IMG/VR virus record: IMGVR_UViG_3300021962_000553
Span: 1-26,386 of that record
Reading direction: 5' to 3' (one strand)
Length of the DNA stretch: 26,386 bases
Source of the DNA: a virus
The stretch's first letter is position 1; the number at the start of each line of letters is the position of its first letter. The position numbers and the translations under genes were made by a program. Below are positions 1,221 to 2,781 of the stretch, piece after piece. The notes beneath the pieces are model-generated. The model saw only the letters and a list, made by a program, of their open reading frames with translations, was not told the DNA's origin and did no database searches.

Positions 1221-1675
1221 GACTCGACCGTCTTTCGAACGATCGACGCGATCGATTGCGGAGCACCATTCGAGGATCGAGGACGCGGTACGCGATCGCG
1301 GAATTTGATCTCGGAAGAAGCGTAACCCGCCGCCTCTCCCGAGCTGACTTCCGGCTTTCGCTCCCGATACGCTTTCGCCCGAGCCGCTGCGGTCGGGTCA
1401 ATTTGATATCGAGTCCAACGCGAGACGTGAATCCCGCCCTCGGGATCGACGGAGAGGAGACCCTTATCGACGAGCTCCTCGACGCACTCCGCGACGGACG
1501 TCGAGACGACCGCTTTTAAATGCGCGAGGGAATCGAACCCTCCTTGCCGATCCTGCTCCTTCGCTGCGAGAACGATTGCGACGAACGCCCAACGGACGCC
1601 GTCCGACGAGAGCGTCGCGACTTTCCCGTCCTTCGGCATTCCGACGTCGAACTTCGCCCACGGTCGACCCTTCAT
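1217..1675 (-). CDS. Replication-initiator / replisome-organizer-like protein
   Basis: 152 aa; its ATG overlaps the stop of the methyltransferase gene (ATGA). The N-terminal half (WAKFDVGMPKDGKVATLSSD, then a helical WAFVAIVLAAKEQ, then CVEELVDKGLLSV and GGIHVSRWTRYQ) has the order of a winged-helix domain as in phage replisome organizers and DnaD-type initiators. The second half is basic and low-complexity (AAARAKAYRERKPE), likely a linker or DNA-binding tail. Its position between a methyltransferase and a nuclease in the early operon fits DNA metabolism. No catalytic motif is visible, and a transcriptional regulator remains possible. Confidence 0.45.
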   Translation of the reverse strand: MKGRPWAKFDVGMPKDGKVATLSSDGVRWAFVAIVLAAKEQDRQGGFDSLAHLKAVVSTSVAECVEELVDKGLLSVDPEGGIHVSRWTRYQIDPTAAARAKAYRERKPEVSSGEAAGYASSEIKFRDRVPRPRSSNGAPQSIASIVRKTVES

Positions 1676-2781
1676 TGCGCCTCCTCCTTATACTTCTTAT
1701 CGACTGCAACCAATCGTCGCCCGATCCATTCCGCAACGTTCGAGACGACTCCGTTCCCGCAGCATCGGTACCGGTGCGAATCCGGGACGGACGCCCCTTC
1801 TTCGTCGACCGAGTGCGTTCCGAGGACGATATGCGTCGCGCGAATATCCCCGACGTCGAACGTATTAACCGTATTTGCGAGTCCGTCGTCGACCCACGTT
1901 TCCGGCGATCCCGGAGAGCTTACCCGTGCGGACTTGCGGTAGACGTGCGGAATCGCCCGTCCGGTATCGAGCGTCGGAGCCGTCCCCGAATCTCGGAATA
2001 TGCGTTCCGACTGCGGAGAATCGCTACCTCCCCCGGTTAGGCTTCCGTCTTTTTCCTGCGAGGATTCCAATCCTTCGCGATCGTCCAACCGTCGGGCCAA
2101 CTCATAAGACGCTCGGTTTCCGTCGGCGTCAACCGACGAACCGTTTCCCCGGAGTCCAATCCGTCCGCAATCGCTTGCAGAGCTGCGGCGAGATCTTCCG
2201 GTAACGCGCGTCCCCGCCTCGTCGCCCGTTGGAGAATGCCCCGCGCCGCATTCGCACTCATGAAGTACTTCTTCGGAGCGGAGAGATCCATAACTTCCGA
2301 TAAGAAACACTCGCCGCCGTCGTTGAGGGACTCCGAAATATTGCGCGTCCAAAACTCGCCACGAAACGCCGAACCCGAGTTCCCCCATCTCGTCGAGGAG
2401 TCGGGCGAAGTCGCGACCGCTATTCGAAGTGAGAAGCCCCGGGACGTTCTCCAAGAGCACCCATTCCGGACGCTTTCGTTCCAAGATTTCGAGAAATCGG
2501 AAAGCGAGAGAGCTTCGAGATCCGGCGAATCCCCTTCGCTTTCCTGCGACGGAGAGATCTTGGCAAGGGAAACCTCCGGAATAGATTTCGGCATTCGGAA
2601 TATCCTCCTCTTTCACTTTCACAATATCTCCGAGATTCGGCACGTCGGGCCAATGCGTCGAGAGTACCGCGGACGCGTACGGATCGATCTCCGAGAAGGA
2701 AACCGTCTTAATCCCTGCGCGTTCGAAGCCAAGATCGAGACCCCCGACCCCGCTAAAAAAGCTCGCGTGCGTAAGGGTCAC
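1672..2781 (-). CDS. DNA cytosine-C5 methyltransferase, large (alpha-type) polypeptide lacking motif IX
   Basis: 369 aa, GTG start at 2781 overlapping the upstream stop (GTGA). Motif I is FFSGVGGLDLGFERAG (residues 8-23), motif IV is GGFPCQDLSVAGKR with catalytic C73, motif VI is ENVPG (111-115), motif VIII is QRRRRVFLIG (153-162), and motif X is RYRCCGNGVVSNVAEWIG (338-355). A segment around AIPHVYRKSARVSS and ETWVDDGLANTVNTFDVGD belongs to the target-recognition region of many phage C5 enzymes. Motif IX (RxLTxxExxRLxxxPD) is absent between that segment and motif X. It is instead encoded in the +1 frame inside this gene (2037-2594). The product transfers a methyl group from SAM to cytosine C5; the target site cannot be read from sequence. 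The frame is uninterrupted, so this is not a simple frameshifted pseudogene. Confidence 0.9.
   Translation of the reverse strand: MTLTHASFFSGVGGLDLGFERAGIKTVSFSEIDPYASAVLSTHWPDVPNLGDIVKVKEEDIPNAEIYSGGFPCQDLSVAGKRRGFAGSRSSLAFRFLEILERKRPEWVLLENVPGLLTSNSGRDFARLLDEMGELGFGVSWRVLDAQYFGVPQRRRRVFLIGSYGSLRSEEVLHECECGAGHSPTGDEAGTRVTGRSRRSSASDCGRIGLRGNGSSVDADGNRASYELARRLDDREGLESSQEKDGSLTGGGSDSPQSERIFRDSGTAPTLDTGRAIPHVYRKSARVSSPGSPETWVDDGLANTVNTFDVGDIRATHIVLGTHSVDEEGASVPDSHRYRCCGNGVVSNVAEWIGRRLVAVDKKYKEEAQ
2037..2594 (-). CDS. C5 methyltransferase small (beta-type) polypeptide carrying motif IX, nested in +1 frame
   Basis: A 185-codon ORF wholly inside the methyltransferase gene, read one base downstream of its frame. 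It begins at an ATG preceded by a perfect AGGAGG (2604-2609) with nine bases between. Residues 153-170, VRRLTPTETERLMSWPDGW, are a clear C5-MTase motif IX, exactly the motif missing from the main frame. Residues 109-132 (KYFMSANAARGILQRATRRG and on) match a 'YxLSxxAxxGILRRAxxRGxxLP' block I recognise from phage methyltransferase-linked proteins. In M.EcoHK31I an alpha chain lacking motif IX pairs with a beta chain read from another frame of the same gene and carrying motif IX. The same split is inferred here. Residues 1-100 have no recognisable domain beyond family resemblance. Confidence 0.7.
   Translation of the reverse strand: MPKSIPEVSLAKISPSQESEGDSPDLEALSLSDFSKSWNESVRNGCSWRTSRGFSLRIAVATSPDSSTRWGNSGSAFRGEFWTRNISESLNDGGECFLSEVMDLSAPKKYFMSANAARGILQRATRRGRALPEDLAAALQAIADGLDSGETVRRLTPTETERLMSWPDGWTIAKDWNPRRKKTEA
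2604..2609 (-). promoter_or_regulatory. Internal Shine-Dalgarno for the nested MTase small subunit
   Basis: AGGAGG on the minus strand, nine bases before the ATG at 2594. In the large-subunit frame these bases encode part of Lys-Glu-Glu-Asp, so a ribosome site is embedded in coding sequence. This is the main evidence that the nested frame starts independently and is not made only by frameshifting from the large subunit. Confidence 0.6.

Follow-up and report, generated by a model that had tools for sequence, protein, structure and literature searches.

Does the C5-cytosine methyltransferase gene of a phage encode one protein or the two chains of a single enzyme, read from overlapping frames? 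The question arises from a 26,386-base IMG/VR virus record, the whole of which we analysed and refer to as the window. The record carries portal, major head, tape-measure and tail-fibre genes, which indicates that the virus is a tailed phage. On the minus strand, a 369-aa ORF with a GTG start (2781..1672) encodes the methyltransferase, here called the alpha chain, and a 185-aa ORF with an ATG start (2594..2037), the beta chain, is nested within it in the +1 frame. Alpha overlaps both of its neighbours, its GTG coinciding in part with the stop codon of the upstream ORF and its own stop codon with the downstream ATG. An initial annotation of 1672-2781, whose coordinates and motifs were right and whose strand is minus, had proposed that the main frame lacks motif IX, that the nested frame supplies it, and that the phage makes a two-chain methyltransferase from one overprinted gene.

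Alpha is a C5-cytosine methyltransferase in which motif IX does not accompany motifs I-VIII, as it would in a single-chain enzyme. It matches Pfam PF00145 (DNA_methylase; 1.9e-57) over residues 5-168 only and NCBIfam TIGR00675 (5.6e-58) over motifs I-VIII only. M.HhaI aligns to residues 6-163, which comprise motifs I-VIII, and a weak second stretch of that alignment, at residues 334-355, fits motif X. An AlphaFold model of alpha superposes on M.HhaI with a Z of 24.7 and an rmsd of 2.7 over 215 aligned residues. Motif profile maps place the motif I region (FSGVGGLDLGFERAG) at 2647..2766, motif VIII (QRRRR, within QRRRRVF) at 2296..2361, a conserved TRD-like segment (YRKSARVSSPGSPETWVDDGLANTVNTFD...) at 1822..1941 and motif X (CCGNGVVSNVAEWIGRRL), which the weak M.HhaI alignment also covers, at 1702..1785, all on the minus strand. 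Motif IV (PCQ) with the catalytic Cys73, assigned from the alpha sequence and the M.HhaI alignment, lies at 2560..2568 on the same strand, and motif VI (ENV) is carried in the same chain. As the initial annotation had it, motif IX is missing from the main frame: the best score anywhere in an HMM scan of the alpha frame was -2.6 bits, and alignment to M.HhaI revealed no motif IX in that frame. The part of alpha that follows motif VIII is a poorly conserved linker that is predicted to be disordered, with predicted disorder at residues 178-276, the stretch that faces the beta domain and motif IX of the overlapping frame. A peptide module, SIREDA...FSAT..ID...PSxQSHHAQTFIA, recurs between motifs VIII and X in the alphas of loci L001, L006 and L014; it is absent from the alpha of the window and is perhaps a target-recognition cassette.

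The missing motif is found in beta. Motif IX (VRRLTPTETERLMSWPDGW) scores 51 bits in the beta frame, compared with a maximum of 21 bits in 1000 alpha-preserving recodings, and the motif map and HMM score place it (VRRLTPTETERLMSWPDGWT) at 2082..2141 of the minus strand. A Shine-Dalgarno sequence, AGGAGG (2609..2604, minus strand), lies 9 nt 5' of the beta ATG (2594-2592); both the clear motif IX and this start site had been recognised in the initial annotation. Beta also contains a conserved domain (YFMSANAARGILQRATRRGRALPEDLAAALQAIA; 2166..2279, minus strand, +1 frame) that is delineated by profiles, shuffles, codon-position pattern and predicted structure and has the consensus YFLSAKACxGILRRAxxRGKxLPxxLxxAL. 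Rows from annotated records were left out of the alignment used for fold prediction. In the AlphaFold model of the window beta, a confident helical hairpin occupies residues of about 110-150 (pLDDT up to 97), and motif IX comes after it; the N-terminal arm (residues 1-100) is of low confidence (pLDDT about 52), and the pTM of the model is 0.36. Neither a Foldseek search with the beta model (best E 3.2) nor a profile search of PDB sequences with beta returned a match, which is not informative for a fold of only two helices; we nevertheless count a mostly low-confidence model without a PDB match against the two-chain explanation. Pfam and NCBIfam contain no model for the beta domain. PHROG family 16143 ('DNA methyltransferase', 139 aa) matches residues 43-116 of the window beta with an E of 1.9e-7, and its relatives with values up to 1e-12; it covers only part of the chain, and its annotation gives no hint of an overprinted subunit.

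The initial annotation likened the locus to M.EcoHK31I, whose beta chain, as reportedly shown by Lee et al. in 1995, comes from a different reading frame within the alpha gene, much as 2594..2037 is nested in the +1 frame of 2781..1672. We find the analogy apt. In M.EcoHK31I, which recognises YGGCCR, the large chain carries motifs I-VIII, a predicted TRD and motif X, and the small chain carries motif IX only (PMC3404938). The same layout of motifs is seen in the window, where the large chain has motifs I-VIII, a TRD-like segment and motif X without motif IX, and the small chain has motif IX. In motif layout, M.EcoHK31I is the closest known enzyme; unlike this restriction-modification enzyme, the gene of the window resides in a phage, among overlapping phage genes. 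A second natural two-chain C5 methyltransferase, M.AquI (CYCGRG; PMC3404938), is split after motif VIII, and its second chain carries both IX and X. The window differs from the M.AquI plan because its motif X is in alpha.

We next consider whether the nested frame is truly coding or a shadow of alpha, which was assessed through alpha-preserving recoding, synonymous codon identity and codon-position variability. After motif VIII, real beta sequences score 63-81 bits, compared with means of 0-11 bits for alpha-preserving synonymous shuffles (median z 9.4), and beta-preserving recoding of this stretch costs alpha little (median z 2.3). Over motifs VI-VIII, alpha is dominant (z 7.9) and beta is weak (median z 2.75, and 1.3 in the window itself); we count the weaker selection that beta shows before motif VIII against the two-chain explanation. 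The initial annotation had suggested a check for reduced synonymous change. Measured against codon usage, synonymous codon identity along alpha stays near 1.0 up to the beta start, rises at window position 2605, remains at 1.2-3.0x through 2173 and then returns to about 1.0x, and synonymous constraint on alpha is thereby confined to the span from the start of beta to the end of its domain. The codon-position pattern flips after motif VIII from alpha-like (.66/.67/.32) to beta-like (.45/.63/.66), such that variability peaks no longer at alpha position 3 but at alpha position 1, the third position of beta codons, and the +1 protein is 58% conserved there, compared with 35% for alpha. The earlier proposal that roughly 560 bases are constrained in two frames stands in that both frames are constrained, but the constraint is uneven, acting on alpha up to motif VIII and on beta after it. 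These patterns indicate that beta is a real, selected, overlapping gene with conservation far beyond chance. Two other signals were rejected as evidence: an open +1 frame, because alpha-preserving recodings often stay open (0.55-0.62 of the window shuffles in one recoding test and 0.74 in another), and a match to the BETAN profile (the VI-VIII stretch in the +1 frame) alone, because the alpha motifs cast a similar shadow.

Most loci have a start codon and a Shine-Dalgarno sequence about 105-110 codons before the beta domain, which matches the AGGAGG-ATG of the window. Among 36 representatives with Lys-Glu-(Trp/Tyr) at the Shine-Dalgarno site, the Lys-Glu codons are AAGGAG in 28, compared with 6.3 expected (p 4e-15). 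At the other Lys-Glu sites of these genes, AAGGAG is used in 9 of 60, compared with 9.6 expected. This bias indicates that beta is initiated internally at a Shine-Dalgarno sequence under selection.

The beta domain is also widespread. Motif profiles applied to three-frame translations located it in the +1 frame of motif VIII at 272 of the 272 loci that have both the beta domain and a frame reference, and at each of these loci the frame is open and the domain conserved; homologues with a broken +1 frame, which the initial annotation had named as evidence to the contrary, were not among them. A ten-residue conserved stretch (profile A2) matched at least 600 places in IMG/VR, a two-stretch search yielded 464 confirmed places in GTDB genomes, and a consensus-like beta was matched by 172 phage records; because the loci are interrelated and were collected by similarity to alpha or beta, these counts do not represent a random sample. 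A search for related loci with the window beta alone as query found nothing, and a search at the class level, covering 369 genomes, contributed L275 as its one useful locus. Beta spans several bacterial phyla and phage P1, and in hundreds of phages and prophages, P1 included, it lies mostly unannotated inside the same gene.

The position of motif IX varies among these loci. Motifs IX and X are both in the alpha ORF at 198 loci, both in a third ORF at 41 and both in the beta ORF at 2; motif IX is in beta and motif X in alpha at 12 loci, including the window, and additionally at L275 on a bacterial chromosome, for a total of 13. On a tree of alpha motifs I-VIII (171 rows), the split seen in the window requires at least three changes, and in the sister lineages of this split motif IX resides in alpha. 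Where IX and X are in a third ORF, that ORF in many cases begins shortly ahead of the alpha stop, which results in the order alpha, overprinted beta, gamma. L218, L259 and about 40 further loci are built of three pieces: an alpha with motifs I-VIII, an overprinted beta and, opening near the end of alpha, a third ORF with TRD, IX and X. At L078 and L252, the loci closest to the M.AquI plan, the beta ORF continues in a single frame across motifs IX and X. The alpha of most relatives has every motif, which we count against the idea that beta always supplies motif IX. The initial view of beta as the missing motif IX piece therefore holds for the window, where motif IX is only in beta, but is too narrow for the 198 loci that keep it in alpha. 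Conservation of beta at those 198 loci suggests that beta is more than a carrier of motif IX, and it is probably an accessory subunit that would sit next to motif IX and the target-recognition region. Most simply, beta would always adjoin this region, and motif IX could then be supplied by either chain. The distribution supports the interpretation of beta as a broad family of overprinted subunits with a helical hairpin of its own, one that would not depend on carrying motif IX.

Other origins of the beta signal are difficult to reconcile with these data. One is that conservation of the +1 ORF simply follows the alpha motifs and codon bias, with motif IX as the decayed remnant of an old frameshift. 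Over VI-VIII, the +1 frame is indeed mostly a shadow of this kind: BETAN matches even loci that have no hairpin, L022 and L030, and alpha-preserving shuffles retain much of the score. However, the shuffles destroy the score after motif VIII (z 7-13), where the codon-position pattern flips, 13 diverged loci have an intact motif IX, and the internal Shine-Dalgarno sequence is under selection; these patterns already contradict the explanation, which we consider extremely improbable. A +1 slippage near motif VIII would instead generate a chimera of motifs I-VIII, hairpin and motif IX rather than a separate chain. Slippage at that site would account for constraint on the beta frame being strongest after motif VIII, but the constraint already begins upstream, at the internal Shine-Dalgarno sequence and start, and the chimera of the window would have no motif X. 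In most loci, a start codon also precedes the domain by about 105-110 codons, and the Shine-Dalgarno sequence is specifically selected. Both observations speak against a frameshift as the way in which beta is made, and we judge this route very unlikely.

A real and internally initiated beta could still be an independent phage protein overprinted on the methyltransferase, acting in anti-restriction or regulation, for instance, that recruited motif IX secondarily and is not a subunit of the enzyme. Consistent with this possibility, beta is conserved where alpha has all motifs, which suggests that its basic role is not the supply of motif IX. In contrast, none of the examined loci had the beta domain apart from a methyltransferase gene, and motif IX, which belongs to the enzyme core, entered beta on at least three occasions, a move that would require beta to sit on alpha. 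We regard an independent role as decidedly improbable, and conclude that the locus very probably encodes one C5-cytosine methyltransferase composed of two chains from two overlapping frames. The initial proposal of a two-chain enzyme is in this respect supported at the level of sequence, with the same split at twelve further loci. According to this two-chain explanation, ribosomes would initiate at two separate sites, at 2781 for alpha and at the internal AGGAGG-ATG (2609/2594) for beta, each independently of the other. Alpha would supply SAM binding and catalysis (motifs I-VIII), the target-recognition segment and the C-terminal motif X, and beta would supply the conserved helical hairpin and, in the lineage of the window, motif IX. 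Motif IX normally organises the target-recognition domain, and the two chains are therefore expected to be active only together. Alpha and beta would then form a physical complex, methylation activity would depend on beta, and the enzyme would methylate the DNA of the phage itself against host restriction.

Several relatives place the window among known systems. The chromosomal locus L275 has the arrangement of the window, with an alpha of 302 aa and a beta of 182 aa that is 30% identical to the window beta over 173 residues (E 1e-24), and it looks like a bridge between EcoHK31I and phage loci of the window type. A convergent 302-aa ORF at L275 (2079-2987, minus strand), which has no Pfam, NCBIfam or PDB family match, may be a candidate restriction endonuclease; an EVE-domain-like ORF lies near it. 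Nested genes were annotated as 'C5 methyltransferase alpha/beta subunit' in Streptococcus phage MM1 1998 (GenBank DQ113772), and a nested beta in a phage has thus been annotated before. As in the window, the MM1 1998 beta occupies the +1 frame relative to alpha and has an internal Shine-Dalgarno sequence; unlike in the window, its alpha keeps motif IX, and its shorter beta (141 aa) comprises only the first part of the hairpin, without motif IX. In phages P1 and P7, the same beta ORF is overprinted, unannotated, in the C5 part of dmt (Dam); here an adenine methyltransferase part is joined to alpha, which retains motif IX. Among P1-like phages, the sequences of L280 and L283 differ from that of L024 (P1) where the beta domain ends and the gene enters the specificity region, and the domain is intact in each version. 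A P1-like dmt on a Shigella flexneri plasmid (L031, NZ_CP058773.1) has motifs I, VIII and X in different frames and no dmt gene listed, and looks broken or mis-sequenced.

Our literature searches, whose scope did not extend to the original EcoHK31I papers, returned no paper on the alpha/beta overlap and encountered EcoHK31I only in passing. What is new is the breadth of beta, the evidence for its selection and the observation that motif IX has moved from chain to chain. We put somewhat better than even the chance that a large lineage of the phage C5 enzymes now taken as single-chain, P1 Dmt included, consists of two-chain methyltransferases with a conserved, overprinted accessory subunit, and that motif IX is mobile among alpha, beta and a third ORF because this subunit always adjoins it. 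Annotation seldom captures a gene nested entirely within another, and studies in which methyltransferases of this type were cloned, expressed or recoded may have dropped a subunit or retained one without knowing it. With its repeated changes of frame, motif IX provides a natural series for how C5 methyltransferases tolerate being split, which is relevant to split-enzyme tools for DNA methylation, and EcoHK31I, a curiosity of the 1990s, gains the context of a broad family.
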